Source of the DNA: a virus
Reading direction: 5' to 3' (one strand)
Virus record (IMG/VR): IMGVR_UViG_3300033996_001256
Span: 1-64,000 of that record
Length of the DNA stretch: 64,000 bases
The notes under the pieces are model-generated. The model saw nothing but the letters and a program-made list of their open reading frames with translations. It was not told the DNA's origin and made no database searches. Below, one piece after another: positions 7,892 to 63,853 of this stretch (within the stretch, counting starts at the first letter, position 1; each line of letters opens with the position of its first letter). Position numbers and translations under genes: made by a program.

Positions 7892-8215
7892 ATGAATTTA
7901 CAATATTATAACAGATATAATGAGTTTTTAATAAATGGACAACAAACCGTTACTCCATATATAAATTTACCTGCAAAAACAACTGATAAGAATTTTATTT
8001 ATAAAGTTGGACAATCAAGGTTGGATAAGATATCATTTCAATTCTATAACACACCTTATTTTGGGTGGTTAGTACAAATGGCAAACCCACAGTATAGTGG
8101 ATTGGAATCAAACATACCCGATGGGGCAATTTTAACAATACCATTCCCCCTTGTTAAATCATTACAGGATTATAAAAACGAATTAGATAATTATTTCTTC
8201 TATTATGGTAGATAA
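7892..8215 (+). CDS. 53: gp53-like baseplate wedge protein (LysM-like fold)
   Basis: A 107-residue protein with the pattern of T4 gp53-type wedge proteins: an N-terminal segment YYNRYNEFLINGQQTV, then a LysM-like core with FIYKVGQSRLDKISFQFYN, FGWLVQMANPQ and a terminal DGAILTIPFP. T4 gp53 (about 196 residues) joins neighbouring baseplate wedges; this one is shorter and close to the minimal core. It starts three bases after the preceding stop and its last 11 bases overlap the next gene, so the three genes are probably translated together. Confidence 0.65.
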   Translation: MNLQYYNRYNEFLINGQQTVTPYINLPAKTTDKNFIYKVGQSRLDKISFQFYNTPYFGWLVQMANPQYSGLESNIPDGAILTIPFPLVKSLQDYKNELDNYFFYYGR

Positions 8216-11200: not shown

Positions 11201-14200
11201 ATATAGGTCATACAATGAACCTAATGATTTAAGTTATATACTATCAACAATTAAGAAATTCGGGGCGGTACATAAATTACCATACGCTTGGATTGTTAAA
11301 TACGGATCAATTTGGCATAGATACAAAACTTGGAATGAAAAAGGTATTGATATGTTGGATGAGGTTTGGACTGATTTTAATTATTTAGGTAATTATGATC
11401 CTGTTACTTCAGCGTCTACAAAGGTATATAGTTTAAACATTGAAGGATTCCAAAATAATATTGTCTTGGAAGACACGGTAACTGCAACACCAAATTTGGT
11501 CACATATAATTCAACAACAATGAACACAGGGTTCTACCCTAAGTTGTATGATGATATGAATGTATTTCTACAAGGATTACAACTATTTTCAGGTGTCACA
11601 CAATTAAATGGTACTTGTACTATTACAGGTACAACAATGGATGTTTTAACTATTAACGATAATAATTTGGCACCTGGTTTAGTATTAGCGGGACCAAACA
11701 TTGAAGTTGGAACAACAATAGTGTCACAAGTTACCGGTAATACAGGAGGTATTGGACAATATATTGTTGATATATCACAAGATTCCCTAAGTAATGTGTT
11801 TTATGTTACCAACTCGGCAACAGGTGGGTATTCACAAACTGAAATACAAGGGTTAATTAATGATGGTAAGTTAGTGATGACCACAAATTCATTGGGTAAG
11901 ATTATTGAAATAAGTGGTTTTGATCCTAACGATAATGATAGGTCGTTAAAAATAACCCCTTGGTCAACAATTGTTAAAACAACTGAAGGTGATAAATATT
12001 TTGTAATGCCGTCTTTTGGTTATACAAAAAATCAAACAAGAGATGAGTGTTTTAAGAATAACAAATTAAAAGTTGAGGTTTCAAGTAACCCTGCGGTGTT
12101 TAACGGATCGGTTAGATTATTTTGGGGAGCACCTAATTACGGGTATTTTGATAATACAAAAATTTCAAAACCAAATCCTGATTCATACTTAAAAGAAATA
12201 TTGTCAGATAAGAAAATACAACAGAACTTTTCATTAAATGGGGATAACACAAAATACAATAAGATATCTGAAATGTTCACAACATTTGATACGGAAGTAT
12301 TAGATTACTTTGAACAAGAGTTCTTGAATTTTAGTAGATCAATTTACGATTATAATACATTAGTTCCAAGTGATAAAGATGTTGAAACAGAATCTGAAAG
12401 ATCATATAAGAACTTCCAATTGTTAATGAGAGAATTATTGGTTGTTGAAAAACCGTCAACTCTTAATTCTGAGGGGATGATTAATTCGGTAATTGAAAAA
12501 CAAAAATCAACTTTCCAAGGAATATTAACTAATTTCTTAGAGTATAATGTTGTATTAAAGATGGGTAATCCTTCTATGTTTGATAGAAGAACATTCTTAA
12601 CCTTCTCAACTAAATTCTTAATTGATCCTGTATCATACCAAGGATATAATCAAGGGACAACAGGTGGTTTACCGTCAAATGGTGGGACAATTACATTGGC
12701 CCAATCAAAAAGTGAAAACCCTGAAACATGGAAAGCGTTAGAGAAATATGTAGGGTTTTCTGAAATACCAGAATTAGTGTATTCAGACAATGGATCATAT
12801 ATTACTGACTTCTTTATTGATTTGAATGTTCAGTTTACTGAGAAAAATGTTAAAGATTTTGCTCCGTTGATTATGTTATATGCAACACAAAAACTTAATA
12901 ATTTTGAAATCCCAACAAATAATGTTGTTATTCCAAACCCTGTTCCGACACCTGCACCAAGTCCTCAAACACCTGGTGATTTATTAACGGTTGTAACACT
13001 TAAAGATACTAAAACAATTTCGGTATATAAATTTGGGACACAAAAATATGGTGTTTATAAAGACGCAACAGGAACAATTATTTATACTGGGCCGACACAA
13101 AATGCGTTTCAATATCCTTTAAATAGTACAATAGTTGATCAAATTATTATAATTCAATATGATGCTTTAGCAACAACTCCTAATGATAATCAATTTATTA
13201 TTAGTACTGTTAATATAACACCTTCACAAGTTACAACAACCACAACTACCCTTCCTATTGTTCAAAATTTAGGTAATAGTGTTGATGGTGTTAAGTTTTA
13301 TGGTCTTATGGATCAATACCTTGATAAATCTGAAACTTATCTTAAAAATGTTATTTCTAATTTAATGACAGGTGTGAGAGCCGGATTACCAAGTATTACA
13401 ATTGAAGGAGATAAAGGTAATAGAGCTCAACTTGAGGGAGAACAAACACGAGTTGAAATATGGGAAACATTTAAAGCATTCAATGACACATGGGTTGCAG
13501 GCGGAGACTTTAAATCAAAAACATTATTTGAAGATGTTCTATTATTTGATAGAGCAAGTAGAGATGTTGGTCAAAAAGTATATGTAGATATCTTTAAGGT
13601 TAAGGATTTAATTGAGGGATCTCTAACAAAGAATAATATGTTAGACATTATCTCAACAATACTTACGGAAAATAATTTTACTTACTTCCCATTACCCGCT
13701 TACGCTAATTTTTATAACGCACAAGATGCCGAAAAGAATCCTGTACCAAGAAGTGAAGGGTCAACTGAGTTCGCAAATTCATTTTGGGGAACGTTCTTAA
13801 ATGTGGATTACAGAAACACATCACCTAAGTTCTTATGTTACTACGCAAACAAACCTAGTCAGTATGTGGACATGAAAGATAATGTTGATTATAGATTTAG
13901 AGATGACGCTTTTGATCTTAGGAGAGCAAGTGACAATCCATTAGTTGAAAACCAATCAAATAAAAAGAATTGGGATAAATCAAATAAAGTGGTTGGTTTT
14001 AATATTGATATTAGTAATCAAAATCAGCAAATATTTAAAAACTTTAGTGTTGGTCAAGATGTTGGTAAACCTACTGCGGAATCTTTGGAAATGTTAAATC
14101 AAATGGCTAACCAAAGTAGAAATAGAAGTACAGGTTCTCAAAACGTATCGTTATATAACCTTTATAGAAATAGAAGTTACGAATGTTCTGTTGATATGTT

Positions 14201-15113
14201 AGGTAATGCTTTAATACAACCAATGATGTATTTTAATGTGAGAAACATACCTATGTTCTCAGGACCATATATGATTACATCTGTAACACATCAAATTAGT
14301 GACGGAGATTTCAGTACAACATTTAAAGGTACAAGACAACCTTTTTATAGTTTACCTAAAATTGATAATTTTATTCAATCATTAAGTTTAAATATTATTT
14401 CTAAATTACAAGAACAAATTAAATCAAATGAAGAAAAGACAAAATTATCAAGTGATAATGTGATATTCCAAAAAAACAATGTAATTTCAAATGTAACTGG
14501 TACTGATACAATAACTAAGAATCAAGATTGTTCAGATAAAATTAATAGTGGTTATGTTGGATATACACCTTTAGATAATCCGGCAATAACACAACTTTCA
14601 TATAAAGATTTTAAAAAATTACTTGAGGATAGGATTGTTGCTAGTGGTATACCAAAAGAAACTACAAGTAATGGCGTAACAACCATAAGTGATACTTTCT
14701 TAAAATTATCGGGATTTTTATTCTCGTTTATATATTTAGATTCGGCATCATCAAGTGGTTTAAAAGCGTATGAGAATAATTATAGTACAATAAATTTAAC
14801 TGAAACTTATGGGGCAATACTATCAACTACTGCTAATAAAAAATTCTATTGTGTATCAAGAGGTACTAATTTGAATATACCTGTGGTGTCATTTATATCT
14901 GCAGAAAAATTTGTGGATTTTGCTATTGCTAAATTTAAAGATAAACTATCTTTAATAAAAACGGCTAGCGATGAAGAGATTGTCCAATTATATGTTACTA
15001 AGTATCCTAACACCCAACCTGATAATGTTTATACTGAAATGACAGAACAAGATAAAAATACATTAAAAAATAAAGTAAAACAGTCGGTAGATATATATAA
15101 CTCATTAAATTAA
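8205..15113 (+). CDS. Giant baseplate hub-like protein (gp27-type ends, large insertions)
   Basis: At 2302 residues this is the largest product in the window. The N-terminal 260 residues (GLLGITDIQVAIDT, FFQLPYPMFYLTLKGYYGKA, FDNTTGNFKIVLKFFGYKY) and a region near residues 1985-2060 (GNALIQPMMYFNVRNIPMF, then SGPYMITSVTHQIS and FSTTFKGTRQPF) look like the two halves of a phage baseplate hub of the gp27 / gpD type. Between them lie more than 1500 residues of inserted sequence, including a Pro-rich linker near 1580-1600 (PNPVPTPAPSPQTPGD) and a Thr-rich stretch near 1680. T4 gp27 is only about 391 residues. The hub would centre the baseplate and carry the spike. Hub identity is by pattern recognition; the function of the insertions is unknown. 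Confidence 0.5.
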   Translation: MVDKGENILVEFDYDNITLIDPNKIVDNEGKVSDRLVKHENLVFYANLECNVLPRTKLALGSALNDSIRTVSVGKINFLNPGNKTFLDNRYTDEITGKGSVQGKGVNQPKLNAVQNPNKSDDFYLTQSTYSNGTPGAVDNGLLGITDIQVAIDTSFLPTVTVNLTDVKGRALFEGGNNSPYSAFFQLPYPMFYLTLKGYYGKAVRLPLMLQSFTSNFDNTTGNFKIVLKFFGYKYTVMSYVNWGAMMAVPHMYNNFVSTVQSITNTPAATNLEVVTAKPVSRGFQKMKELYSEYKAKGLVDDDFPEITITQLKARLDRFIKNILEKFTKENLGVLTELDNFQTQLTEFQKKVFFYGDSWFETYMDKTNSYSLKDTKEVVYTFKKEYSDPNKQAEAQTKLSGIFTEYQKLFESNSVAGKNGSYTVGGKTTKSEVPVNATVEKCEAKINPLTDIDYAKTYEERNGKPAKTQIELDTFIASNGVPPNTKFFVFEGVDHFIDITEKSAKDSSTLRRQIEEKISENLNEQLSNKETGVGFKPSIRNILAVFFAQGEAFIRLMDDVHSKAWDIRENKYRQQAIFGSNSSAQSVDVKSSTQNNEPIYPWPQVIRETLGDDKQEKFEIVYPGDKSIATMTKAYIPEIWPEVEFVEEFIKGYVDREPKNPDYGDESNVLTKPSRLSLNALDFPVTNEIFQNKEEIKFFYEIYERVMVNTYYSKLNRQSGYDASIFMVEAEDEKINILKSLGNDNPFLTQKLKQYLIDQNNFLTFLRHISNQGEGESWQKFIRGEFTINYIKNKTNTPFELFNQEILTNERSQPDVSLTDESKIIDYIGNQTSSNEFDFSDMYPITNFDWCKNYLADGKALQNVNLAYNTKDVLSYNTTHKTICNFKNDDTNDKKRPITNFNYKADVFSQNIDTSNFKTFYNNRKIEEQFTTEGNLNYSNYDGFVTDTQTTSILNTPYFINAIQSGVYNFRYKSDDLASYKQAAYLFLNSLPLASLREKYRSYNEPNDLSYILSTIKKFGAVHKLPYAWIVKYGSIWHRYKTWNEKGIDMLDEVWTDFNYLGNYDPVTSASTKVYSLNIEGFQNNIVLEDTVTATPNLVTYNSTTMNTGFYPKLYDDMNVFLQGLQLFSGVTQLNGTCTITGTTMDVLTINDNNLAPGLVLAGPNIEVGTTIVSQVTGNTGGIGQYIVDISQDSLSNVFYVTNSATGGYSQTEIQGLINDGKLVMTTNSLGKIIEISGFDPNDNDRSLKITPWSTIVKTTEGDKYFVMPSFGYTKNQTRDECFKNNKLKVEVSSNPAVFNGSVRLFWGAPNYGYFDNTKISKPNPDSYLKEILSDKKIQQNFSLNGDNTKYNKISEMFTTFDTEVLDYFEQEFLNFSRSIYDYNTLVPSDKDVETESERSYKNFQLLMRELLVVEKPSTLNSEGMINSVIEKQKSTFQGILTNFLEYNVVLKMGNPSMFDRRTFLTFSTKFLIDPVSYQGYNQGTTGGLPSNGGTITLAQSKSENPETWKALEKYVGFSEIPELVYSDNGSYITDFFIDLNVQFTEKNVKDFAPLIMLYATQKLNNFEIPTNNVVIPNPVPTPAPSPQTPGDLLTVVTLKDTKTISVYKFGTQKYGVYKDATGTIIYTGPTQNAFQYPLNSTIVDQIIIIQYDALATTPNDNQFIISTVNITPSQVTTTTTTLPIVQNLGNSVDGVKFYGLMDQYLDKSETYLKNVISNLMTGVRAGLPSITIEGDKGNRAQLEGEQTRVEIWETFKAFNDTWVAGGDFKSKTLFEDVLLFDRASRDVGQKVYVDIFKVKDLIEGSLTKNNMLDIISTILTENNFTYFPLPAYANFYNAQDAEKNPVPRSEGSTEFANSFWGTFLNVDYRNTSPKFLCYYANKPSQYVDMKDNVDYRFRDDAFDLRRASDNPLVENQSNKKNWDKSNKVVGFNIDISNQNQQIFKNFSVGQDVGKPTAESLEMLNQMANQSRNRSTGSQNVSLYNLYRNRSYECSVDMLGNALIQPMMYFNVRNIPMFSGPYMITSVTHQISDGDFSTTFKGTRQPFYSLPKIDNFIQSLSLNIISKLQEQIKSNEEKTKLSSDNVIFQKNNVISNVTGTDTITKNQDCSDKINSGYVGYTPLDNPAITQLSYKDFKKLLEDRIVASGIPKETTSNGVTTISDTFLKLSGFLFSFIYLDSASSSGLKAYENNYSTINLTETYGAILSTTANKKFYCVSRGTNLNIPVVSFISAEKFVDFAIAKFKDKLSLIKTASDEEIVQLYVTKYPNTQPDNVYTEMTEQDKNTLKNKVKQSVDIYNSLN

Positions 15114-40200: not shown

Positions 40201-40277
40201 ATTGTGTTTCTCTTAATGATGAAAACAATTTGGAATTAAATGTGGGGATAAATTTTGACATAACTTGTAATCAATAA
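37260..40277 (+). CDS. Large baseplate/tail protein with tail-protein-I-like segment
   Basis: A 1005-residue protein. The N-terminal 300 residues are beta-rich. The middle (about 350-480) has helices that resemble baseplate wedge/tail-protein-I-type domains: SRFLTTGAIKEFDTPDQKIE, LLKNLAMTLGWDTNISPIT and FKSKGTRKSIEILLRLIGAPE. The C-terminal 130 residues are Cys-bearing (CQLVPVPCDPCYAIGQLVPF) and end in a small domain similar in layout to one in the next protein (WYVDVRLNGTQIVDYKFFDG). Its stop overlaps the next ATG. It is likely the adaptor that carries the adhesin to the baseplate; that is inference from order. Confidence 0.5.
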   Translation: MAVTKYTCPPQTPSGQGTFSDNLVGLQLVDGGGFTQANFEFTTSITEKQDRNFSIGAFSEPISLDSLNIQSITESRLIQANNFKVYPNFDLSQVTNFTLYGSLVKRISTSISHIINFFPAALEITSTLPNYSTTETALNIQYDPVEDETTFDVLINSLRNPFDIDYSSNSNRNFELLEIEVSSLRNFTLNYPKYSLFINGGEYPFIFYSPSNNTSTTLNFVVKGNPFSGNSISYDTVLIRPNDMYVNKTFNEAMDEVEQFLLNRSITPIYTSTFTVPRENEDGTVYLTTQAITFPKNGQWNLDITSLAFDNYLTTLNDFAANLDLYRTNLISRFLTTGAIKEFDTPDQKIEKVLQIYGRSFDETKKFISALSNMNNVNYNVKNDIPSQLLKNLAMTLGWDTNISPITNDQLLDSVFSTGTNEFSGLSVGMTPEELNYQYYRNLILNSAYLFKSKGTRKSIEILLRLIGAPEALIEFNEYIYIADQKINIEEFNGQYANLSGGTYTQQLPILDTTDIYSIQGQQFTGFTTTSIISDVNVFPEDYPIDNFGYPTMPSVSDSYFFQIGGGWFESTPQHRMPEQVDSTNSVFIGSNPNYQTTLLPFNYGEQYLQRYRTFPYMTLGYKLRRVVDNKKSWTDTDDGLRTNFDGGFNAYYPVGDDKLVVNVKNVDIFMNPAQGLVYDVWTMSRQYNYPIPNEGLNYIEPTRCNPTPNTPYPERGGIDWTEIKPKPKEKTFFEFAQTFWHNTINVRNRQFITDGKTGGYPTLQSIYWKYLESGQAINVPNDNFTYQTMIDYVNGLGTYWIKLIEQMVPATTIWNTGTKLENSIFHRQKFVWRRQMGCQLVPVPCDPCYAIGQLVPFDCPIQSVNCPIYPWGSDPLINSFGSVLGQVLTTYLDNNGYDLNNDCLANTITSEWYVDVRLNGTQIVDYKFFDGYGYSVSGTSFPTQVNWLNALYDSLPQMINEGLTFNIDETTNIVTIYNNNCVSLNDENNLELNVGINFDITCNQ

Positions 40278-43200
40278 TGGGGTTAATTAATATAAATGGG
40301 TTTTCCATAACTGGAGATTGTACAAACGAGGGATTAGGCGAAATTATTTTTTCGGTAACAGGAGATAGTCCTAATTGGTTAGTTACTGAAACTCCCACCG
40401 CAGATGTTAATTTACCAACATCTGCATTAACTGTATTTGATAATGTTTATTATTACTCAGGTTTAAGTGCCGGTAGTTACTTTTTAAATGTCTATGACTC
40501 AACATATACTAATTATATTGTTGTTAATTTCTATATATCTTCGGGTACCTGTGTATCAATTAATACGACAGACACTACTTGTGGATTTGATAATGGGGGT
40601 ATAACTGCGACAACACAAACGGTATATGGTAACGGTGGAACCTTTACGTTATATGATATTAATGATAATTTCATCTCAAGTGGAACTTCAGTAAGTAATG
40701 AATATGTTTTCCCACCTGTACCTTCAGGAATTTACTACGTTATTGCCAATGACGGTGGTGGATGTACAGGTTGTAGTGAATCATGTGTAGTTAGAGAGTC
40801 ATTTCCATTTGATTATGGTTATTACGTTGTTAATGACGGAAGTTGTATAGGTAGTGATGGTAGTGGTAAAATATTTTTAACGGGTTTATCAGACCCAAGT
40901 CTATATACTGTTAATTGGTTAACGAGTGTTAATGGTCAAACAGGGACTACGGTGACAGGTTTGACTGAAGGTTTATACAACGTTCAGGTAACTAATCAGG
41001 ATGGTTGTGTATCAACTAAAACAATAACAGTTACCGGGGTAGATCCGTTAGGAATTGGTGGTTTTATGACATATCCACCAACTTGTTTCACTAATGATGG
41101 GGAAATAACCATTATTATTACGGGGGGTACTGCGCCATATTATATTGGATGTTCAAACGGTGATAGCGCGATAATTTTTAATAATGAATATACATTTACT
41201 GATTTATTTTCGGGAACGTATAATTTTAATATTATAGATGCTGGTCTCTGTAAAGTGTCGGGAACAACATCTATTAATACGTCAAATAGTTTTCAAGTAT
41301 TAAGTGTTGATACGACAAATTCAATGTGTAATGACAATTCAGGATCAGTTACAATTACGTTAATTGGATCAGGATATTATACGTATAGTTTAACGGATTC
41401 ATTACATGATACAACAAGTTTTGGTCCTACAACTAATATAGTTCAAGTATTTGATACGTTGTCTTCAGGTGATTATGATTTAGTTATTACCGATGGAGTT
41501 TGTGATTATGAAACAACAATTACAATTCATAATACTGAAAAATTTACAATCTCGGCTATAACTGAAGATACTACTTGCGGGTTAAATAATGGGTCAATAC
41601 AATTATTAGCAAGTACAGGTGGAACTTTACCTTATCAATATGAAATAACAGGTTTTCCACCATCCTCAACGACTACATTTAATAATTTAGCGTCTGGTAA
41701 TTATGTTGGAACAGTTACAGATAATACGGGTTGTTCTCAAAGTTTAAATATATTTGTTAATAACTCTAATGGTGTCTTTTTTGATTTAGTTGTTGACCAA
41801 CCAACAAGTGGGGATAATGGTCAAATTGAAACTATTATATATGACGGAACACCTATATTCACCTATGATTGGAGTCCTAATGTTAATGGTCAAACAGGGA
41901 CTACGGTGACAGGTTTGACTGCGGGTACCTATAGTTTAGAGGTAACAGATTCAAGTGGATGTACATTAACAAAAACTGTGACTTTATCAGGTACTGAAAA
42001 AAAATTAAGTTATCAAACATATAATATATGTAATGATAATTTCCAAAATACTGGAATACTCGGTAAAAGAGGTATGCAACAGATGTTAACCGAAGGGTTT
42101 AAAGATTTAACATATGATGATACAGGATGTATTTTAAATACTGCAAATTTTATTGCGGATGTAACAGTTGATGGAGAAAACACACAACAATCATTTTATG
42201 TATCGTCAGGTTTAACTGATTATCCTTCAGATTATGTGTGGGGTGAAACATTAACTGAACTTTTACAAAGTTATAGCGGAATTAGTAAAGTTGAAATTAA
42301 TTACTCAACTAATGAGATTAAAATTTATAACAAATGTGTGGAAATAGACGGGTGTCAACCTGAAACAATTTATTATTTGTCTGATGCGAATATTGTAATT
42401 AATCTAAAATTAGAATACAATATTTCTTGTCAACAATGTATTACAACCCCAACTCCAACCCCAACTCAAACTTTAACTCAAACTCCAACACAAACACAAA
42501 CGCAAACTCCTACACAAACCCCAACTCAAACTTTGACTCAAACACCAACTCCTACGCAAACACAAACGCCAACACCAACTCAAACTTTAACTCAAACACC
42601 AACTCAAACACAAACACCTACGCTAACCCCAACTCAAACTTTGACTCAAACACCTACACCGACTCAAACAGAAACTCAAATACTTACACCTACACCTACG
42701 CCAACACCGACCCAAACTGAGACTCAAACGCCTACGCCAACACCAACTCAAACAGAAACTCAGACTCCTACGCCAACACCAACCCAAACAGAAACTCAGA
42801 CTCCTACGCCAACACCAACCCAAACACCAACACCAACTTATCCTGATACGGAATTTTTACAACTACAAAATATTATTGGTACAGATCCAATGATTGTGTC
42901 TTTTAAAACCGCACCAGATAGTAGTTTTAATATAAATTGGGGGGATGGGTCATCAGAATTTGTTAATATAACTGATCCACCGTACAATCCTACTTTTAGT
43001 GCGTATACCTATACTCATAATTATGTAGGTAGTTTAAACACTGCGATTTTTGAAGACTTCCGAGTGTCATCATCATTATCAACTGACAATATTCGTGAGA
43101 TTTATTTAGCAAATGTTTCAGATATTATTGAAAATGTTTATACTTTTAGTGCATTTACTGCTTCAACTAAATTAACTTTAACGGCTTGTACTTTAACTGA

Positions 43201-44518
43201 GTTCAATTCTAGCTTACCTAATACTCTTGTGAGATTTTACATATATAACAATTACGCACCATCAACTCAATACTTTAATTTTAATCCAACAACAAACTTA
43301 GCATTATTACCTAGTTTTGTAGAGTTAATTATTTCAAATACTGATATGTCAGGGTTTACATATGATTTTTCAGGAAGTAGTTCATTACAAACTCTTCAGT
43401 TAACTAGTAATAATAGTTTAACAAACTTGAATATGACAGTTCCGACAGGGTCATCGTTTTTTCAATTTTGGGTATTCGGTAATACTTCGTTATCGGCATT
43501 AACAGTTAATAATAATTTATCGGATTGTATAAATCTTAATGATATACGAGTATATGGAAATACAGCATTAACAGGTTGGACTTATATATTACCAGTGGCT
43601 GCAGATAACGTACAATTAAATTCAAATAGAATCCGTAATTTTGACATTGATTTATCGGCAAATACAAATTTAACTGATTTAAATTTAAATAGTAATCTTG
43701 TTTTAAGTTCATTCACAAATAGTATATCTGCATGTACATCATTGACAGATTTAAGATTAGATAATAACAACTTAACGACATTACCTCCGATATTCCCAAA
43801 TAGTATTCAAACATTAAGATTAGAATCAAATGATATAACGGGATACACAAGTAACTTCCCTACTAGTTGTGTTTATTTTGATATGAGTGATTCTGTAGCG
43901 AGTTTACAGACTGTTCCCCAATGGTCGGTAGATTTAACGGGAGCAACGTCATTACAAACTTTCAATTTAAATAGTGTTGGGTTATCAGGATGGACAACAC
44001 AATTCCCATCATCAATTAAAACAATAAGTTTTAGAAATAATCTTTTAACTGATTTTGATTTTAATTATACTACAGGTGCTACATCAATAGATTTATATTT
44101 CAACCAATTAACTGGAACAACAAATTTATCGGGACACACTTCTTTAACTGGTTTAACAATAGGAAGTAATAACTTTACAGATAGTTCTCCAATACTTGGA
44201 GGTGACTTCCCACCAACTTTAAGAACATTTGACATTGGGGGGTCACCATTATTAACAGGATGGACGACAACATTCTCAGCAATGACCAATATGTTGTCAT
44301 TAAATTTCCAAGGTACCAAACTTAAAACTGCGGCGGTAGATTACATTTTAGATGATGTTGCAACTATAGCGGTAGCAAATAATTTATATAATAAAACACT
44401 TAATTTATCCGGTACTCCTCCAAACCAACCAGAATCCCCAACGGGAGGTGTGACTAATGCTGATTATATATTACTTACAAGTTCACCATATAATTGGACA
44501 GTAACTATAACCCCATAA
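40277..44518 (+). CDS. Tail adhesin: SprB-like repeats, Pro/Thr linker, PKD and leucine-rich C-terminus
   Basis: A 1413-residue probable receptor-binding fibre. Residues about 90-560 hold a series of SprB-type repeats, each with a Cys, an N-G or D-G turn and a closing G.Y...V.D..GC (for example DTTCGFDNGGI, DTTCGLNNGSIQLL, TVTDNTGC). SprB is the gliding-motility adhesin of Flavobacteria. Residues about 724-854 are a Thr/Pro/Gln linker. A PKD-like strand (FNINWGDGSSEFV) follows at about 880, then leucine-rich-repeat-like units to the end (LTDLNLNSNLVLSSF, LTDLRLDNNNLTTLP, IQTLRLESNDITGY). It starts at an overlapping TAATG after the 1005-residue gene. Binding target unknown. Confidence 0.65.
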   Translation: MGLININGFSITGDCTNEGLGEIIFSVTGDSPNWLVTETPTADVNLPTSALTVFDNVYYYSGLSAGSYFLNVYDSTYTNYIVVNFYISSGTCVSINTTDTTCGFDNGGITATTQTVYGNGGTFTLYDINDNFISSGTSVSNEYVFPPVPSGIYYVIANDGGGCTGCSESCVVRESFPFDYGYYVVNDGSCIGSDGSGKIFLTGLSDPSLYTVNWLTSVNGQTGTTVTGLTEGLYNVQVTNQDGCVSTKTITVTGVDPLGIGGFMTYPPTCFTNDGEITIIITGGTAPYYIGCSNGDSAIIFNNEYTFTDLFSGTYNFNIIDAGLCKVSGTTSINTSNSFQVLSVDTTNSMCNDNSGSVTITLIGSGYYTYSLTDSLHDTTSFGPTTNIVQVFDTLSSGDYDLVITDGVCDYETTITIHNTEKFTISAITEDTTCGLNNGSIQLLASTGGTLPYQYEITGFPPSSTTTFNNLASGNYVGTVTDNTGCSQSLNIFVNNSNGVFFDLVVDQPTSGDNGQIETIIYDGTPIFTYDWSPNVNGQTGTTVTGLTAGTYSLEVTDSSGCTLTKTVTLSGTEKKLSYQTYNICNDNFQNTGILGKRGMQQMLTEGFKDLTYDDTGCILNTANFIADVTVDGENTQQSFYVSSGLTDYPSDYVWGETLTELLQSYSGISKVEINYSTNEIKIYNKCVEIDGCQPETIYYLSDANIVINLKLEYNISCQQCITTPTPTPTQTLTQTPTQTQTQTPTQTPTQTLTQTPTPTQTQTPTPTQTLTQTPTQTQTPTLTPTQTLTQTPTPTQTETQILTPTPTPTPTQTETQTPTPTPTQTETQTPTPTPTQTETQTPTPTPTQTPTPTYPDTEFLQLQNIIGTDPMIVSFKTAPDSSFNINWGDGSSEFVNITDPPYNPTFSAYTYTHNYVGSLNTAIFEDFRVSSSLSTDNIREIYLANVSDIIENVYTFSAFTASTKLTLTACTLTEFNSSLPNTLVRFYIYNNYAPSTQYFNFNPTTNLALLPSFVELIISNTDMSGFTYDFSGSSSLQTLQLTSNNSLTNLNMTVPTGSSFFQFWVFGNTSLSALTVNNNLSDCINLNDIRVYGNTALTGWTYILPVAADNVQLNSNRIRNFDIDLSANTNLTDLNLNSNLVLSSFTNSISACTSLTDLRLDNNNLTTLPPIFPNSIQTLRLESNDITGYTSNFPTSCVYFDMSDSVASLQTVPQWSVDLTGATSLQTFNLNSVGLSGWTTQFPSSIKTISFRNNLLTDFDFNYTTGATSIDLYFNQLTGTTNLSGHTSLTGLTIGSNNFTDSSPILGGDFPPTLRTFDIGGSPLLTGWTTTFSAMTNMLSLNFQGTKLKTAAVDYILDDVATIAVANNLYNKTLNLSGTPPNQPESPTGGVTNADYILLTSSPYNWTVTITP
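40927..40967 (+). repeat. 41-bp exact direct repeat, copy 1
   Basis: Begins TGTTAATGGTCAAACAGGGA and is identical to 41881-41921. The copies are 954 bases (318 codons) apart, in frame, and encode VNGQTGTTVTGLT in two SprB-like repeats. Confidence 0.85.
41881..41921 (+). repeat. 41-bp exact direct repeat, copy 2
   Basis: Second copy of the 40927-40967 repeat. Near-perfect DNA identity in otherwise diverged protein repeats suggests recent duplication or gene conversion. Confidence 0.85.
42448..42840 (+). repeat. Pro/Thr/Gln-coding tandem repeat with 36-bp units at its 3' end
   Basis: A low-complexity stretch built from ACNCCNACNCAA-type units encodes about 130 residues of Thr/Pro/Gln. The 3' part contains three consecutive 36-bp units (42719-42754, 42755-42790, 42791-42826), each coding ETQTPTPTPTQT. 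Such DNA can change length by slippage. Confidence 0.8.
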
Positions 44519-44557: not shown

Positions 44558-45532
44558 ATGGGAGATATTCTTTTTGTTACTGCACAACCTGACGTACCTT
44601 ATTTTCATTGGCAAGTAAAATTGTATACTCATAATTTTATTGAGAAGGGAATTAAACCTTGTCAGATCCATGTTATTTTTGGATTACAAAAAAAACAACA
44701 ACCATCACAAGGGGCATTAGAATTATGTGATTACGGATTTAATGTTCATTTTTATGATGATGATCGTGAGAACAAATCATACATACCAAGTATAAAACCA
44801 TATCTAATTTATCAATGGTTAAAAGAATATCCTGAAAACGGTAAATTATTTTTCTTACACGATTCTGATATCATCTTCAATAGATTACCAAATTTTGATA
44901 AATTACTTAATGATAATGTATCTTATTTATCTGACACGATAGGCTATATTGGTTACGAATACATTAAAGATTGTTGTGATAGATATGAGAAACAACATCC
45001 AACATCAAACAAAGAACAGTTACTCCAAGAGATGTCAGATACAATAGGTATTGATGTTGATCTTATAAAACAAAATCAAGAAAATTCGGGTGGAGGTCAA
45101 TACCTTATCAAAAATACGGATCCACTATTATGGGGTAAGATTTATGATGATTGTACACCATTGTATAACCAAATGTTAGATTACCAAAGAAGATTCCCCA
45201 TTAATCCTGGTCAAATACAATTTTGGACTGCCGAAATGTGGTCATTATTATGGAATATGTGGAACTCAGGGTATGAAACAAAAATCACAAATGAGTTAGA
45301 TTTTTCATGGGCAACTGATAGTATTGATATTTATAATCAAAAACCAATACTACATATGGCAGGTGTGACTGACCAATTAAGAACTACGAAATTTTATAAG
45401 GGAGATTTCATAAACAGAAATCCGATTGAGGATTTAAGGAATGACATTAATTTCTTTAATTATGTGGACAAAAATAGTTCTACGATTAAATATATTGAAG
45501 TAATGAGGTCATTTTTGGAAAAAAATAAATAA
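44558..45532 (+). CDS. Glycosyltransferase-like protein (GT-A, DxD motif) among fibre genes
   Basis: A 324-residue protein. The N-terminal half reads as a nucleotide-sugar-binding fold and contains LFFLHDSDII with D102-x-D104, the metal-binding DxD of GT-A enzymes. The second half has GGGQYLIKNTD (about 178), WTAEMWSLLW (W223 on) and PILHMAGV (H266), which resemble the acceptor-side motifs of peptidyl Ser/hydroxyproline glycosyltransferases. It has no signal peptide or membrane segment, so it would act in the cytoplasm. It lies between Pro/Thr-rich fibre genes, which suggests those as substrates. Another role, such as modifying host glycans or DNA, is possible. The start is ATG 44558 after a 39-base spacer. 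Confidence 0.5.
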   Translation: MGDILFVTAQPDVPYFHWQVKLYTHNFIEKGIKPCQIHVIFGLQKKQQPSQGALELCDYGFNVHFYDDDRENKSYIPSIKPYLIYQWLKEYPENGKLFFLHDSDIIFNRLPNFDKLLNDNVSYLSDTIGYIGYEYIKDCCDRYEKQHPTSNKEQLLQEMSDTIGIDVDLIKQNQENSGGGQYLIKNTDPLLWGKIYDDCTPLYNQMLDYQRRFPINPGQIQFWTAEMWSLLWNMWNSGYETKITNELDFSWATDSIDIYNQKPILHMAGVTDQLRTTKFYKGDFINRNPIEDLRNDINFFNYVDKNSSTIKYIEVMRSFLEKNK

Positions 45533-45549: not shown

Positions 45550-46878
45550 ATGGGAACTCAACCGATATCAGTAAAACCAATAAATGAATGTGCGATAGTT
45601 ACGTTATTTCCAATGACGGCTATATGTGATAGTGTTAATCCAAGTACTCCACAATCCTATGATGGATCAGTAAGTGTTATGGTTAGTGGTGGTACTCCAC
45701 CATATAATATTACTTGGGAAGAAGGTGGATTAGGACCAACAAAATCTAATCTTGGTGTTGGAGATTACCGAGCAACCATTGTTGATTTTTATGGTGATTT
45801 TACGGCAAATACAATATGTAGTTTAACCGCAGAAACAAGTACAACCACAACCTCCACATCAACAACTACATTACCTGTTTACGAGGATTTATGTATGTAC
45901 TTTACGGACAACAATGGTCCAAATTCAGAAACACATCAGTTTTTATTTAATGGATATTTAAATGGAAAACCTACTTGGATATCTGATGATGACTTATATA
46001 ATATATATTGGAGTACAGGTACTACAAATCAATGGTTAGTTGACGGGTGGAGTAATGGTATCATTTACAATTCAAATACATCCGTACCACCATTAACGGG
46101 GTGGCAATTCTTAGGTGGTAGTTATTCAGGGACATTTACTATTACCGTTTCTGAGGGAACTTGTGTGGATAATCCTATGGTTAATATATTAATAAGTTAC
46201 CAATCTCCAACCTGTGGTAGTAATGGTAGTATTATTGTGACGGCAAATGGAGGAACACCATCGTACCAATACTCAATTAATGGAGGAACAACATACCAAT
46301 CAAGTCCTGTATTTAGTAATTTATCAAGTGGTATATATAGTGTTAAGGTTAAGGATACAAATGATGTAGCAACAACACAAAGTGTTACTTTATCAGGGCC
46401 ACCACCTAATCAAACTTATCAAATAGCATTACTTTTAACGGGTCCTAACTCTTTTAACATAAATGTAACTCCTACATTACCAAGTGGGGTATATATCACT
46501 TTTGATTTAAAACATAATAGTGTATTTAAATTAGCACCTTCACCAACCGTGGCGGTATATAATAATGTTGTCACGGTTAATGTTAATGGAAATCCGATTG
46601 CGACTCCATCACCTATGTTAAGTACAACCGCAACATTTAACCCTTGTGATTCGGGGTCTATATATACTAAAACAAATATCACTACATGGACTACGTTAAC
46701 GTTTAATCCAACAAGTACCATGAGCGGTACTTTTACAAATAATATAAGTCCGATAACACCTTTAGTTAATTGTTATTCGGTTAGTGGGTCAAGTGAATTA
46801 GTTATTACAAATGCAAAATTATATAACTGTGATTGTTGTAATATAACAATAAAAAACTCTAACCCTATTAGGATTTAA
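45550..46878 (+). CDS. Fibre-like protein with two SprB-like repeats
   Basis: A 442-residue protein. One SprB-like repeat is at about residues 20-95 (DGSVSVMVSGGTPPYNITWE), a Thr/Ser linker at about 96-110 (TSTTTTSTSTTT), and a second repeat at about 218-282 (TCGSNGSIIVTANGGTPSYQ, then GIYSVKVKD). The C-terminus is a separate beta domain ending with a CDCC motif. It is probably a short fibre or adhesin subunit that belongs with the 1413-residue adhesin and the glycosyltransferase-like gene. Confidence 0.55.
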   Translation: MGTQPISVKPINECAIVTLFPMTAICDSVNPSTPQSYDGSVSVMVSGGTPPYNITWEEGGLGPTKSNLGVGDYRATIVDFYGDFTANTICSLTAETSTTTTSTSTTTLPVYEDLCMYFTDNNGPNSETHQFLFNGYLNGKPTWISDDDLYNIYWSTGTTNQWLVDGWSNGIIYNSNTSVPPLTGWQFLGGSYSGTFTITVSEGTCVDNPMVNILISYQSPTCGSNGSIIVTANGGTPSYQYSINGGTTYQSSPVFSNLSSGIYSVKVKDTNDVATTQSVTLSGPPPNQTYQIALLLTGPNSFNINVTPTLPSGVYITFDLKHNSVFKLAPSPTVAVYNNVVTVNVNGNPIATPSPMLSTTATFNPCDSGSIYTKTNITTWTTLTFNPTSTMSGTFTNNISPITPLVNCYSVSGSSELVITNAKLYNCDCCNITIKNSNPIRI

Positions 46879-46930: not shown

Positions 46931-49444
46931 ATGAGCTATATATTAAAAAATACATCAGGGTTAGTTAACACTAGAATAACTGACACAGGAAGATTAAAGT
47001 TATCACAAGGTAATTTTAACATTTCATATTTCCAAATTGGGGATAGTGAAGTGTCGTATAATGAATTACCAAACACTTACAATCAATTTAATAGTGTAGT
47101 TTTAGAACCAAGTTTTAATAGTCAAAATAGTGCCGGATCTCCTGAATCAAACAAACAAAATATTAAATATCCATATTATGTGGATGATAATAATAGTAAT
47201 ACATATGGAATTCCATTTATGGATTCTGTTATTGAACCTGTTTATAATAGAGCTCCATTAAGAGGATTTTTCACAGGTAATACAACCGCAAGTACGGTTA
47301 ATTATAGTGCGTTTACAGGATCAAAGTATGTTGTAACGTCCAATTACATTGTTGATATGTCAACATTAAATGGATCAAATCAAATAACAATAATCCAAGA
47401 TATATGTGACCCAACAAACACTAATAAACCAAGTGTTGGAGATTTCATTACAATTTATTATGATGGTTTAGCGAAATATGATTGTTCTTGTATTAATTTA
47501 CCTACACCAACACCAACGGCAACAATAGGTACAACTCCTACATTAACTAATACTCCCACTGCGTCAAATACTAATTCTGACCCATGTGCGTCTCCAACAC
47601 CAACACCAACTCCATCGGCAACACCTTGTTTGACACCATCAAACAAACCTGTTTGTCCTATACCACCTGATCCGTCATGTGTTAAACCTGTTCATTCATG
47701 TTTTCCTATATTGACATATAGGATCGTTGATATTTGTGAGAATAATGTGACTTTGGATAGACCAACGCCTAATTATGTTGGATTAAGTTCTAATTGTTTT
47801 GGTAGAGTATTGGTATACCCACCAAATATGACTACACTATATGATAGTATCACACCTCGTCCACATTGGGCGGATGATGTTATCAATTTTGAATCTATTT
47901 GTGATATTGATCAATTTGATGTTAAAGTATGGAATATGAATATTCCTTGGACTGAGAGTCCTGCGGGATTAAGATCTACTGAGTATGAAGATTATACTTA
48001 TTTTGGTTCCATTGATTATATTGGTAGTAAAGAATACTTTGGTTATAACTCAACCTCAGGTCAGACAGATACAAGTTATACGTATTATTACAATTCATTT
48101 GATGAAATTGTTCAAGTTAAACCTGAAGAACAAAAGGCAATTGCTATAATTCATTATACAAACCAAACTATAGATTTCTTTTATGGTGAGAAATTTGCGT
48201 TAGAACCATATAACAATTCAAATCCTGATGATACGACAGGACAAGCAAGAAACTTTAAATTACATATGCCAACATTAATGTGGCATAAAAATCCTGAGTG
48301 TTGTTATGGTCAAACATTTTGGGTTGATCCTCCGGGATTTGATGGGAAAGATTTATTCCAAGTTGAATATATTAAGTCAACTAAGAATACTGATATGAAT
48401 CAACCTGGTATTCGTTATTATCACTTGTGGGACACTAATGCAAATGCAGATGGGTTACCAAGTAGAGTGGGTAAAGTATTCCCTGATAGTAAGTTAATTA
48501 TTATTGATGACGAAGAAATAATCGCAGCATTATCATATAAATCAAATAGAAACTGGACATTAACGGCACCTCAAGTATCGTTAATTACTCCTAATACTTG
48601 TGGTGTAACCACCGCAACAACTGATGGTATTTTAACAGGTAGTAATGAAACAATGTATGTAACTTATATGTTGGGTAACTCTTATAATTTTACTAATTCA
48701 TTACATTCTAATTATTATTCTAAAATTACCGGTAATAATAATGATTGTAATCCTGACACATCTAAAAATGTGGCGGTTAGATTTGGTGCTGAATTTAAAT
48801 GTTTAACACAACCTGGTTATAGTCCTTTAACGACAACAACAACTACACATCCATTATTAACAACAACAACTACTTATTTACCGTTAACAACAACAACAAC
48901 ACTTTGCCCTACATTTTGTGATACACCTAATGGTTTCTTCGCAACTAAATTCCAAGTGATTGCACAAAAAGTAGTGACAGGACAAAGACCTGATCCATCT
49001 AAATGGAGAGTTATTGATTATACTAGTTCATTAACCGCAACTACTATAAATGGGTATATTACTGAAGAAGGTTTAACAGGAACTACATTTGTTATTACCC
49101 CTGATCTTTATAATAACGCACCGTATTACAATTTAAATAATTATATTCCATTAACACCACTTGGTACCACAACACCAAATCTTAATTTTGGTGACGAGTA
49201 CTTTTTCTACGGAGCGTTTGAAAGTGATATTCAAGCGACAATATATGAGATGAGGTATAAAGTAAATTTAAGTTTTGCTGAATTCCAAACCACAACAAAT
49301 CCTACGTGGAAAAAAGGTGGTAATTCTTACATTACTGAAATTGCGTTACTTGATAGTAATAAAGATGTTATGGTAATTTCTAAGATGCAATCACCTGTAT
49401 TAAGACAAGGTATCCAACAGTTCGTTGTTAAGTTAGATCTATAA
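46931..49444 (+). CDS. Tail fibre/whisker-like structural protein with Pro/Thr and Thr linkers
   Basis: An 837-residue structural protein. The N-terminus (SGLVNTRITDTGRLKLSQGN, then FNISYFQIGDSEVSYNEL) looks like a baseplate-attachment domain. A Pro/Thr-rich, Cys-containing linker spans about 188-245 (LPTPTPTATIGTTPTLTNTP), a beta-rich body follows, then a Thr-rich linker at about 633-658 and a C-terminal domain. No enzyme motif is seen. It ends the forward-strand fibre cluster. Likely a fibre or whisker carried on the baseplate; exact role unknown. Confidence 0.5.
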   Translation: MSYILKNTSGLVNTRITDTGRLKLSQGNFNISYFQIGDSEVSYNELPNTYNQFNSVVLEPSFNSQNSAGSPESNKQNIKYPYYVDDNNSNTYGIPFMDSVIEPVYNRAPLRGFFTGNTTASTVNYSAFTGSKYVVTSNYIVDMSTLNGSNQITIIQDICDPTNTNKPSVGDFITIYYDGLAKYDCSCINLPTPTPTATIGTTPTLTNTPTASNTNSDPCASPTPTPTPSATPCLTPSNKPVCPIPPDPSCVKPVHSCFPILTYRIVDICENNVTLDRPTPNYVGLSSNCFGRVLVYPPNMTTLYDSITPRPHWADDVINFESICDIDQFDVKVWNMNIPWTESPAGLRSTEYEDYTYFGSIDYIGSKEYFGYNSTSGQTDTSYTYYYNSFDEIVQVKPEEQKAIAIIHYTNQTIDFFYGEKFALEPYNNSNPDDTTGQARNFKLHMPTLMWHKNPECCYGQTFWVDPPGFDGKDLFQVEYIKSTKNTDMNQPGIRYYHLWDTNANADGLPSRVGKVFPDSKLIIIDDEEIIAALSYKSNRNWTLTAPQVSLITPNTCGVTTATTDGILTGSNETMYVTYMLGNSYNFTNSLHSNYYSKITGNNNDCNPDTSKNVAVRFGAEFKCLTQPGYSPLTTTTTTHPLLTTTTTYLPLTTTTTLCPTFCDTPNGFFATKFQVIAQKVVTGQRPDPSKWRVIDYTSSLTATTINGYITEEGLTGTTFVITPDLYNNAPYYNLNNYIPLTPLGTTTPNLNFGDEYFFYGAFESDIQATIYEMRYKVNLSFAEFQTTTNPTWKKGGNSYITEIALLDSNKDVMVISKMQSPVLRQGIQQFVVKLDL

Positions 49445-50169: not shown

Positions 50170-52335
50170 TTAAAGACAAAGACCAATATTGGTGATCACA
50201 ACAAATTTTGATGTGGATGTTGGTAATATTGATGAACATATTTTTAATGATGAATAACCATTAATATTTACTTCCGTTAGAGTACCGGTACTACATGGAC
50301 TATATGTAAATGGTTGAGGACTAATATATGAGTTCTCAATTAAATAGGTGTAACAAGTTGGTGTGGGTTTTGTTGGGGTAGGTGTTGGAGTACTTGTCAT
50401 TGTTGGTGTGGGAGTCGGAGTATTTACAAAAACACATTGTGAACACACACCTTCTGATTCAGGTCCTAATATATCTGTTAAAATTATAGTACTAACACCG
50501 GCAACATCACTAACAAACCCATCATAGGTTATACAAGTTGAAATTCCATTAACAAATGATTGATACACATAACCTTCAGATGGAGTTTCACCAAAAGGAT
50601 CTAAAACAACGTCTGTTGTATAATAAAAGAATCCTGTATTACATTCCTTAAAACGTTTACTACCATTACATCTAATATAATCATCAAATGTGTTGAATAC
50701 CACCGATCCGTCAAAATTACAATTATATTGTGGTGATGCGGTTGGCGTTGCAATCATTTTAGCATTTGTTGCGGTAGGTGTTGGTGTTAAAACATTTGCG
50801 GTAACGGATATTCCTTTACCACCACAAATTTCGGTTGACGTTGGTGTTGGTGTGGGGGTTGGTGTTGGAGTTCCTGTAACGGTTGCCGTTGGGGTTATAG
50901 GTAACTCACAATCAAACACCACATCAAAAGATATTGGTTGACAATAATCAGTTGGTGTAGGAGTTGGTGTTGGACAAGGACCTCCATTAAAGAAATCTTC
51001 ACATAAATCAGGGCACTCAGTATAACAAGGAGATGGCCCAAATAAAAGACATTCACCATCTAATGCGTCTGACAAACACCAACGATTATCAGTTGATGAA
51101 AAATAAATAAATAATCCACTTGTTGAACCGTACCAAAATAATTGACTATTCCATGTTCCACCACTTAGATATGTATCATCATAAGTAACATCACCTGTGT
51201 TAATACAATAGTATTCAAACGGACATGGGATTGGGGGTGGAGTTGGTGTCTGTGTTAGTGTTGGTGTTGGTGTTGGTGTATTTGGTACTATTACAATATC
51301 TGCACATTCTGGAGCTTGTGACGCTCCAAATATTGTATTTGGTGCGTTTTGTGTAAATGTTAGGGTGTATGGTGATGATAATGAAAAATTATATATGGCC
51401 CCATTACTATTACAAACATATAAATCACCTGATGTCATAAACATCCCCCAAGGGTTTGCTATTGTGGGACTAACTAATACATCCACCTCAATATTTCCTG
51501 TTGTGTAGTCATGTTGGGTTATATATCTATTTGCGCCTGATCCATTATATGAACAAATTAATTTATTAGGTGGTGAATAAGTGTAAACCATATCGCCAGC
51601 AATAACTCTTCCTGATGGCATTGGAAATTTGGTGGTAAATACTGCGGTTGAAGTTGTTATATCTATTTCAATTATATTACCACCAAGACTACTACTTACT
51701 AATGTTGTATTATCAATTACGCCTAAACCATCACCAATCGGAGACGGTAGAGTTATATTTCTACTAAACGATGCGGAAAACGGACATAACGTTATGTCGT
51801 ACTCCTTAAGTATAGTTCCACTATACATCCATAATTTTGTGGTTGTATGGGCAATATCACTAGAATTTAGAGTTGGTGTAAAATAAGATGTGATATTTCT
51901 AGTTGTATTTGTTGAAAATACATATCCATATATTAAGGTACCGGCATTAAAAATAATATCACAAGTGTCCAAACAATATGGTGATGTAGGTGTTGGTGTA
52001 CTTGTTAACGTTTGTGTAGGTGTAGGTGTACTTGTTAGAGTTTGTGTAGGTGTTAAAGTTGGTGTTGGAGTTAACGTTTGTGTGAGTGTCGGTGTCGGTG
52101 TCGGTGTTGTACAAGGTGTAATAGTTAGTATTTTGTTGTTAATAAGATAAGTGTTAATACCATTAGAAAAATATAAATTACTTACCGACAGTAGAGTTGT
52201 GCAAGATGGGTCCGTAAATATTCCTTGACCAAGATTTAAACTATCACCATATACATTAATTGTGAATGGTCCCGAACATAACCCTGCCGGACTTGCATTC
52301 CCAGCTGTAAAAACTCCTAAAAAATTACACGCCAT
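50170..52335 (-). CDS. Reverse-strand fibre-like protein: propeller-like body, multiple Pro/Thr linkers
   Basis: A 721-residue protein read on the minus strand. A small N-terminal domain (MACNFLGVFTAGNASPAGLC) is followed by a Pro/Thr linker (about 74-127, TPTPTPTLTQTLTPTPTLTP), then a repeat-rich region (about 128-345) resembling beta-propeller blades (GDGLGVIDNTTLVSSSLGGN, NPWGMFMTSGDLYVCNSNGA). Short Cys-rich domains then alternate with further Pro/Thr linkers. The modular layout and linkers match the forward-strand adhesins. Its start overlaps the stop of the upstream 73-residue gene (TAATG), so both come from one reverse transcript. Confidence 0.55.
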   Translation of the reverse strand: MACNFLGVFTAGNASPAGLCSGPFTINVYGDSLNLGQGIFTDPSCTTLLSVSNLYFSNGINTYLINNKILTITPCTTPTPTPTLTQTLTPTPTLTPTQTLTSTPTPTQTLTSTPTPTSPYCLDTCDIIFNAGTLIYGYVFSTNTTRNITSYFTPTLNSSDIAHTTTKLWMYSGTILKEYDITLCPFSASFSRNITLPSPIGDGLGVIDNTTLVSSSLGGNIIEIDITTSTAVFTTKFPMPSGRVIAGDMVYTYSPPNKLICSYNGSGANRYITQHDYTTGNIEVDVLVSPTIANPWGMFMTSGDLYVCNSNGAIYNFSLSSPYTLTFTQNAPNTIFGASQAPECADIVIVPNTPTPTPTLTQTPTPPPIPCPFEYYCINTGDVTYDDTYLSGGTWNSQLFWYGSTSGLFIYFSSTDNRWCLSDALDGECLLFGPSPCYTECPDLCEDFFNGGPCPTPTPTPTDYCQPISFDVVFDCELPITPTATVTGTPTPTPTPTPTSTEICGGKGISVTANVLTPTPTATNAKMIATPTASPQYNCNFDGSVVFNTFDDYIRCNGSKRFKECNTGFFYYTTDVVLDPFGETPSEGYVYQSFVNGISTCITYDGFVSDVAGVSTIILTDILGPESEGVCSQCVFVNTPTPTPTMTSTPTPTPTKPTPTCYTYLIENSYISPQPFTYSPCSTGTLTEVNINGYSSLKICSSILPTSTSKFVVITNIGLCL

Positions 52336-62644: not shown

Positions 62645-63853
62645 ATGAAAGAAAAATTTTTACCATGGTTTTTATTATTTTGTGCTCTTGGTCTATCAGG
62701 AACCGCGGCTTATTATAGTGTTGTGGGGTTATCTGTGGTGTTTGTTGGTGTTGCGTTACCTGTAATCATTATGGGATCGTTTCTTGAGGTATCTAAGATT
62801 GCCATAGCAACATACTTACACGATAAATGGAAAGAAACATACGGAGTATTAAAAGTATACCTTACAATTGCTCTTGTGACGTTATCGTTAATTACTTCAC
62901 TTGGGATCTACGGTTTATTAAGCACTGGGTTTCAGGGGAATATTGCAAAACTTGAGATTAATCAGAAAGAGATTGCAAACGTAGAAGTAAAGAAGACAAG
63001 ATTTGTGGAGATAAAAGATGAGTTACAAAAAGAAAAAGACGTTTTAGATAAAGACATTTCAAAGTTAAGAGATGGGTTATCTACTAATACCACAACACAA
63101 ACCGTTGATAGAACTACGGGTCAATTAATTACAAGGGCAAATAATGCTAACCGTAAGTCATTTGAGGATCAATTAAAAATGACAACAGAAAATAGAGATA
63201 AAGTATCTACTCGTATTGATGCAATGAATGATAGTATCACTAGATTGGATATTGAAATACTTGATATGGAATCTGCGGAGTTGGAAGGTAGTGAATTAGG
63301 ATCCATTAAATACATCAGTGAGCTTTCGGGATGGGATGTTAAGAAGGTGGCAAACCTTTTTATATTACTTTTAATCTTTGTGTTTGATCCCTTAGCAATA
63401 ACTTTGGTTATTGCAACCAATCAAGCGTTTAAAAATAATAAGAAAAAAAATAATACCCCCCAAGTTACCCCCCAAGTTACCCCTCAAGTTGAACCGATAA
63501 TAATTGAAAAAATTGTTGAGGTTCCTGTTGAGGTAATTAAGGAAGTTGAAAAGATTGTTGAGGTACCTGTTGAGGTAATTAAGGAAGTTGAAAAGATTGT
63601 TGAGGTACCTGTTGAGGTTATTAAAGAAGTTGAAAAGATTGTTGAAGTGGAAAAAATAGTTGAGGCACCTATAGTACAAAGAGAACCTTTAATTATTAGT
63701 GTTGATAAAAGTTGGGAACATTTATCTGATGATGATTTATTTGAAGATGGTGAATATTACATGAGAAGTAATGGGACAGGTGATGAGTCAACAACTACGA
63801 CAACAACTAATGATGGTGTTAAGAGACTAGTTTATAAAAAGAATGATGAATGA
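62645..63853 (+). CDS. Multi-pass membrane/coiled-coil protein with EVPVE repeats
   Basis: A 402-residue protein. Three N-terminal membrane segments (about 5-24, 28-50 and 73-95), a long charged coiled coil (about 100-215), a fourth membrane segment (about 238-258, FILLLIFVFDPLAITLVI) and then a soluble C-terminal region. That region contains TPQV repeats and three 14-residue repeats (IVEVPVEVIKEVEK). The coiled coil would lie in one compartment and the repeats in the other or the same one, depending on topology. A Thr-rich stretch comes near the end. No function recognised; a role at the host membrane is likely. Confidence 0.6.
   Translation: MKEKFLPWFLLFCALGLSGTAAYYSVVGLSVVFVGVALPVIIMGSFLEVSKIAIATYLHDKWKETYGVLKVYLTIALVTLSLITSLGIYGLLSTGFQGNIAKLEINQKEIANVEVKKTRFVEIKDELQKEKDVLDKDISKLRDGLSTNTTTQTVDRTTGQLITRANNANRKSFEDQLKMTTENRDKVSTRIDAMNDSITRLDIEILDMESAELEGSELGSIKYISELSGWDVKKVANLFILLLIFVFDPLAITLVIATNQAFKNNKKKNNTPQVTPQVTPQVEPIIIEKIVEVPVEVIKEVEKIVEVPVEVIKEVEKIVEVPVEVIKEVEKIVEVEKIVEAPIVQREPLIISVDKSWEHLSDDDLFEDGEYYMRSNGTGDESTTTTTTNDGVKRLVYKKNDE
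63512..63637 (+). repeat. Three 42-bp tandem repeats
   Basis: Units at 63512-63553, 63554-63595 and 63596-63637, nearly identical, each coding IVEVPVEVIKEVEK. A shorter partial unit follows. They lie within the membrane/coiled-coil gene. Confidence 0.85.

Follow-up and report, generated by a model that had tools for sequence, protein, structure and literature searches.

A family of phage GT-A-fold enzymes that probably glycosylates poly-threonine tracts of the phages' own virion proteins

The enzyme gene and its threonine-rich neighbours

The window, by which we mean the whole stretch of 64,000 nucleotides analysed here, carries a predicted glycosyltransferase gene among genes for fibre-like proteins. 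The gene is present in one copy in the whole 64,479-base virus record. The features of the locus that are considered below are as follows.

13233..13250, plus strand: TTTTTT in the 2302-aa protein 8205-15113, a possible further substrate
40277..44518, plus strand: fibre-like protein upstream of the enzyme, with SprB repeats, a weak LRR match and a TPTPTQTQT linker at about 42443-42838
44558..45532, plus strand: predicted GT-A glycosyltransferase gene of the PHROG 4417 family (324 aa, ATG start, intact ORF)
44858..44869, plus strand: HDSD, the DxD metal/nucleotide-sugar motif (residues 101-104)
45224..45241, plus strand: WTAEMW motif (residues 223-228)
45353..45364, plus strand: HMAG motif (residues 266-269), followed by K281-G282
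45550..46878, plus strand: fibre-like protein with SprB repeats, directly downstream of the enzyme
45835..45870, plus strand: Thr/Ser tract TSTTTTSTSTTT inside the 45550-46878 protein, a candidate substrate
46931..49444, plus strand: conserved structural-region protein with a poly-Thr insert and also TPTPTP; anchor for the lineage comparison
48830..48901, plus strand: poly-Thr insert TTTTTT-HPLL-TTTTT-YLPL-TTTTT, the best candidate substrate, absent at the same site in a sister clade that lacks the enzyme gene

The first-pass annotation had described a GT-A-type protein with HDSD, WTAEMW and HMAG motifs lying between fibre genes with Thr/Ser/Pro stretches, and both parts of this description were borne out: the motifs are present, and the neighbours on both sides are rich in Thr, Ser and Pro. 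When the enzyme was aligned with 25 relatives (33-73% identity), the residues D102, D104, W223, E226, M227, H266, A268, G269, K281 and G282 were invariant. Invariance across relatives of this divergence implies that the three motifs are not a product of chance. The position of the gene among fibre genes was kept in ten relatives inspected by eye.

The enzyme matched the PHROG 4417 profile over its full length (E = 3.9e-71, residues 6-317 against positions 3-289 of 293), and the same profile also matched six phage records and five IMG/VR records. The family, which bears the alternative label 'prophage pi2 protein 34', includes Enterococcus phiFL1A gp51, Lactococcus bIL285 orf45, VPE25 and others; its function is unassigned in PHROGs, and most records name its members 'hypothetical'. 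Its relatives occur in prophages as well as in lytic phages. With tblastn, the window enzyme matched 74 annotated phage records, the identity being 31-38% among the matches listed. No Pfam or NCBIfam family was found for it (Pfam at E ≤ 0.1 gave two chance matches, in single members only), and a search of the PDB with the family profile found no sequence match.

Runs of at least five Thr were about tenfold enriched in the window: four were seen in its 22 proteins, compared with 0.37 expected from composition, and none of 1000 shuffles reached four. The poly-Thr peptide of the window is TTTTTTHPLLTTTTTYLPLTTTTT. The codons of the Thr tracts were mixed, often with three to six different codons in use, indicating that the tracts are not simple trinucleotide slippage. 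In addition, a predicted membrane/coiled-coil protein beyond the structural block (62645-63853) has STTTTTT near its C-terminus, and a fibre-like gene with many TPTPTP linkers lies on the minus strand (50170-52335) within a block that is otherwise plus-strand.

Predicted fold of the enzyme

The AlphaFold2 model of the window enzyme, built from 14 sequences, had a pLDDT of 87.9 and a pTM of 0.89, and the predicted fold was without a membrane part. Foldseek gave 373 matches in the PDB at E ≤ 1e-3, of which the best 50 were all glycosyltransferases, glycogenin or hyaluronan synthase; the matches included XXYLT1, WbbM, UGGT, glycogenin, LgtC, LARGE1, blood-group enzymes and the PBCV-1 capsid glycosyltransferase. 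Thus, the glycosyltransferase fold proposed in the annotation was recovered, and as modelled the enzyme has a GT-A fold whose nearest counterparts are GT8-, GT24- and GT6-like. However, the best TM-scores to solved glycosyltransferases were only about 0.45, with 8-15% identity to GT8-like and GT24 structures, which in terms of the model means a GT-A fold and yet a separate family.

The GT-A fold, the DxD motif and a C-terminal HxxG are common to the window enzyme, the GT8-like retaining enzymes (glycogenin, LgtC, XXYLT1) and the GT24 enzyme UGGT, whereas the low identity, the TM-scores and the lack of a Pfam match set the window enzyme apart from them. HMAG together with K281-G282 resembles in part the metal-binding motif of GT8, HxxGxxKPW: H266-x-x-G269 and K281-G282 are invariant, but the spacing differs and P-W is absent. 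No sequence match to GT8 or to any other glycosyltransferase profile was found (Pfam at E ≤ 0.1, PDB with the profile). The annotation had seen in the motifs a likeness to enzymes that glycosylate Ser or hydroxyproline in proteins. Pfam and PDB searches gave no sequence match that would support a kinship with the plant enzymes of this kind (GT95/GT96), and the nearest folds were those named above.

Orf49 of phage LP65 is a distant structural relative of the window enzyme (TM 0.72, 22% identity). In the LP65 record (NC_006565, orf49-orf51; L350:1-1107), Orf49 adjoins two T-rich proteins with TETQTQTQ tails, and for one of these, orf51, the annotation gives a role as a virion structural protein on the basis of 2-D gel/MS.

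The modest TM-scores also raise the question of whether an enzyme with this fold catalyses a different reaction, such as nucleotidylation, phosphosugar transfer or glycogenin-like self-glucosylation, and puts no sugar on Thr. GT-A-like folds do include nucleotidyltransferases and the self-modifying glycogenin. However, the DxD, HxxG and K-G residues do not vary among the relatives, the best structural matches are enzymes that transfer sugars, in several cases to proteins or glycans, and the tie to a hydroxyl-rich tract that is described below fits O-linked transfer. We therefore regard a different reaction as extremely improbable.

Co-occurrence of the enzyme with poly-Thr tracts

Since the conserved structural-region proteins of the window had no match among isolate phages, the window's own lineage was compared in IMG/VR, with the protein 46931-49444 as the anchor (n = 80 loci). 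The enzyme was found near the anchor in 67 of these loci, and in 61 of the 67 the anchor protein contained a Thr tract. Among the enzyme-less loci, nine had 9 kb of upstream sequence, and the Thr tract was present in none of them (61/67 vs 0/9, Fisher P = 3.5e-8, uncorrected for relatedness). The nine loci amount to four distinct sequences, which form one well-supported clade among enzyme-bearing ones, and the enzyme family was absent from the whole records of this clade (57-304 kb, possibly fragments). In the alignment of the anchor protein the enzyme-less sequences have no insert at this site and read QPSY-SAGTPC where the enzyme-bearing ones read QPGY-SPLTTTTTTHPLLTTTTTYLPLTTTTTLCP. With the root placed at the midpoint, loss is a likelier origin of the enzyme-less clade than original absence.

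TPTPTP linkers elsewhere in the anchor protein were kept by the enzyme-less clade, and for this reason the TPTPTP stretches were rejected as a discriminating co-evolving partner in this lineage. The difference within the window's own lineage is a single event, yet at the level of sequence it separates poly-Thr from Pro/Thr stretches. The suggestion that the phage O-glycosylates its own Thr/Ser/Pro stalks would thus be right in kind, but the target that is best supported is poly-Thr and not Pro/Thr. Three enzyme-bearing relatives (L413, L421 and L430) are without runs of at least five Thr near the anchor and carry TPTNTVTPT repeats at that site. These relatives and the TETQTQTQ tails of LP65 suggest that members of the family may differ in the Thr-rich repeats they prefer, in a range wider than poly-Thr. 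One enzyme-less relative, L437 (record G007), does contain a T7 tract, in an ORF of 188 aa well away from its fibre block.

The annotation had proposed to look for co-occurrence of the gene and Pro/Thr stalks in other phages, and the outcome for poly-Thr was strongly positive, both in annotated phages and in prophages. Tracts of at least five Thr were found within a few kb of the enzyme gene in 14/14 annotated phages, which span Enterococcus, Staphylococcus, Lactobacillus, Lactococcus, Arcanobacterium and Chryseobacterium. A systematic count gave 13 of the 14; in the fourteenth, Planchet, the tract lies in a frame overlapping the end of the capsid gene, as in VPE25, and Planchet was accordingly rejected as a tail-less exception. 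In phage neighbourhoods from many genera the enzyme gene stands close behind the gene for the major capsid, tail-tube or a small accessory protein, and the poly-Thr mostly forms C-terminal tails of capsid or tail-tube proteins. Such tails end the tail-tube proteins of phiFL1A (GTTTTTSTTTTTTSSTTTTTTTQ) and Lactococcus bIL285 (TTTTTTTTT) and the capsid protein of 4995_1 (GTTTTTTKPTTTTTTTQA); iLp84 gp8 carries repeated PTTTTTTTVK, and LpeD orf68, which its record names 'glycoprotein', has the tail TTTTTTSSTTVAP.

An alignment-based scan of bacterial genomes yielded 36 prophage loci, from Lentibacillus, Lacticaseibacillus, Clostridium, Trichococcus, Listeria and others, and poly-Thr tracts lay beside the enzyme in 36/36, all on the strand of the enzyme and none on the opposite one. 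Most of these tracts begin 30-190 bases before the enzyme gene. Second tracts were found about 2 kb upstream in proteins of capsid size or about 3 kb downstream in proteins of tail-tube size. At the 3' end of several capsid or tail-tube genes the poly-Thr tail is encoded in an overlapping frame (L005:6690-6880, L091:4757-4870, L092:4679-4942, L094:4614-4925 and L095:4714-4920). This arrangement suggests that a frameshift would tag only part of the protein copies.

For the reverse association, viral contigs were scanned for (ACN)7; 5/80 had the family, many of the contigs being short and many of the matches out of frame. Many T-tract contigs were without the enzyme family within the short stretch examined, which means that Thr tracts alone do not require this enzyme. 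A Pfam scan of other T-tract neighbourhoods gave one clear case of a different glycosyltransferase near a T-tract: in L289:826-5665, a PF11397 GlcNAc glycosyltransferase lies behind a poly-Thr/Pro protein with T14, between a radical-SAM/SPASM enzyme on one side and a 2OG-Fe(II) oxygenase and a TauD protein on the other.

Matched comparisons were made with homologues of tailed proteins. The homologues of the phiFL1A tail-tube protein were tailed in 3/3 cases with the enzyme and untailed in 11/11 cases without it (Fisher P = 0.003), and the untailed, enzyme-less ones include proteins 87% and 82% identical. For the 4995_1 capsid protein, 56 homologues were tailed and accompanied by the enzyme, whereas 13 were untailed and all without it; this contrast rests largely on near-identical prophages, the tailed ones being near-copies, and two further tailed contigs end 99 bases later and are uninformative about the enzyme. 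No tract of at least five Thr was found in 29 enzyme-less loci (354,567 bases). Judged on sequence, these controls support a functional link between the enzyme and the poly-Thr tails.

Moreover, the tail and the gene move together. Two prophages that are otherwise dissimilar at the DNA level, L107 and L118, share only a block of 897 bases (94.5% identical), which runs from the first Thr codons of the tail to near the end of the enzyme gene and stands behind the tail-tube gene in one and behind the capsid gene in the other. L107 has a second tail, on a capsid-like protein, and when it is compared with the enzyme-less L108 (79% identical backbone), homology breaks at the edges of both tails and of the enzyme gene. 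The shared block and these breakpoints indicate that tail and enzyme behave as a transferable cassette.

Cassette linkage alone could, however, carry two independent functions, so that the enzyme glycosylates virion proteins at other sites and the Thr tracts are spacers that share its cassette by chance. The glycosyltransferase-bearing relatives in which TPTNT replaces poly-Thr would also fit this explanation. On the other hand, in the window's lineage the best tract belongs to another gene, more than 3 kb from that of the enzyme, and yet tract and enzyme are absent jointly; a single enzyme is also accompanied by a tail on each of two proteins, MCP and MTP. For these reasons we consider modification at other sites unlikely.

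It could also be that the enzyme acts on the host surface (cell-wall or LPS glycan) and thereby excludes other phages or alters the receptor, in the manner of seroconversion glucosyltransferases, the poly-Thr being unrelated fibre spacers. Phage glycosyltransferases often alter host surface glycans, and the present family is shared by prophages and lytic phages. However, in most phages the enzyme gene belongs to the late structural block, no gtrA/gtrB-like partner is annotated in the regions read, and the predicted fold is without a membrane part. Moreover, a role at the host surface leaves the joint absence of enzyme and poly-Thr insert and the tail-plus-gene cassettes unexplained, and we hold it to be very unlikely.

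Proposed function and comparison with known systems

It is likely, in our view, that this phage GT-A enzyme glycosylates the poly-Thr tracts of its own virion proteins, and from the sequence associations and the modelled fold O-glycosylation of Thr clusters on virion proteins appears to be its most likely function. The phage-borne enzyme, predicted to be cytoplasmic and metal-dependent, would transfer sugar from a host nucleotide-sugar onto clustered Thr hydroxyls late in infection, before or during assembly, as the structural proteins are made. The sugar donor is proposed to come from the host; no sugar-nucleotide genes are annotated beside the enzyme in the phage regions read. The predicted acceptor is poly-Thr, for example the peptide GTTTTTTKPTTTTTTT. 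In most relatives this would be a C-terminal tail on the major capsid, tail-tube or a small accessory protein, apparently reached by frameshift in several phages, and in the window's lineage an insert within fibre and structural-region proteins. The likeness of the fold to GT8/GT24 suggests a retaining, alpha-linked reaction. The sugars could form a hydrated brush against proteases, antibodies and sticking, or could mediate adhesion to mucus or host glycans.

We also think it likely that tail and enzyme constitute a mobile 'tag plus writer' module, in which a glycosyltransferase family dedicated to poly-Thr tags is gained and lost jointly with the tail and can spread with it as a cassette. Phages of Bacillota, Actinomycetota and Bacteroidota hosts would in this way tag a virion protein of their choice, be it capsid, tail tube, accessory protein or fibre, in several phages only some copies of it owing to the frameshift, and the result would be a sugar-coated virion surface. 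For a phage family so far called 'hypothetical', this gives a predicted fold together with a probable reaction and substrate. If the proposal is true, virion glycosylation is widespread beyond mycobacteriophages and has a sequence signature by which it can be found, and a poly-Thr tail encoded in a phage genome can be taken to predict a glycosylation tag. This would bear on the interaction of virions with antibodies, proteases and mucus, and a small enzyme that comes with a short peptide tag would serve as a laboratory tool for protein glycosylation.

In the literature searched, which was mostly without subscription papers, we found no description of poly-Thr in phages in connection with glycosylation, nor of the fold, the poly-Thr tag or the cassette behaviour of this family. 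The known systems nearest to it differ in their enzymes or in their targets. Plant HPAT (GT95) and SERGT1 (GT96) O-glycosylate hydroxyproline, or Ser in Ser-Hyp repeats, of Pro/Ser-rich stalk-like proteins, whereas co-occurrence in the present family points to Thr runs. In the glycosylation of serine-rich-repeat adhesins (GtfA-GtfB, Gtf3 and GT8 extenders), dedicated cytoplasmic transferases are likewise encoded next to a long Ser/Thr-rich low-complexity substrate; this likeness is one of description, and GtfA/B belong to GT4 and act on bacterial adhesins. The PBCV-1 major-capsid-protein glycosyltransferase (2p6w), which was among the fold matches of the window enzyme, is a viral GT-A enzyme for a capsid glycoprotein, but it belongs to a eukaryotic algal virus and to a different sequence family, and it builds a multi-sugar N-glycan.

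The first-pass annotation had regarded a phage that O-glycosylates its own fibre stalks as new. Glycosylation of virions by the phage's own enzymes is already known from mycobacteriophages, and what is new here is the family of the enzyme and poly-Thr as its proposed tag. The matches of the window enzyme (tblastn, 50,697 phage records, E 0.01) included no mycobacteriophage. The enzymes of Che8 (gp110), Corndog (gp38) and Myrna are reported to glycosylate capsid and tail-tube proteins of the phages that encode them (Freeman et al. 2023, as cited in PMC12363180, PMC11256854 and PMC13313380), and this glycosylation is reported to shield the virions from antibodies (PMC12363180, PMC11256854). Mycobacteriophage virion glycosylation thus constitutes the precedent for the function proposed here, the phage-encoded glycosyltransferases there also modifying the capsid and tail-tube proteins of the phage itself.
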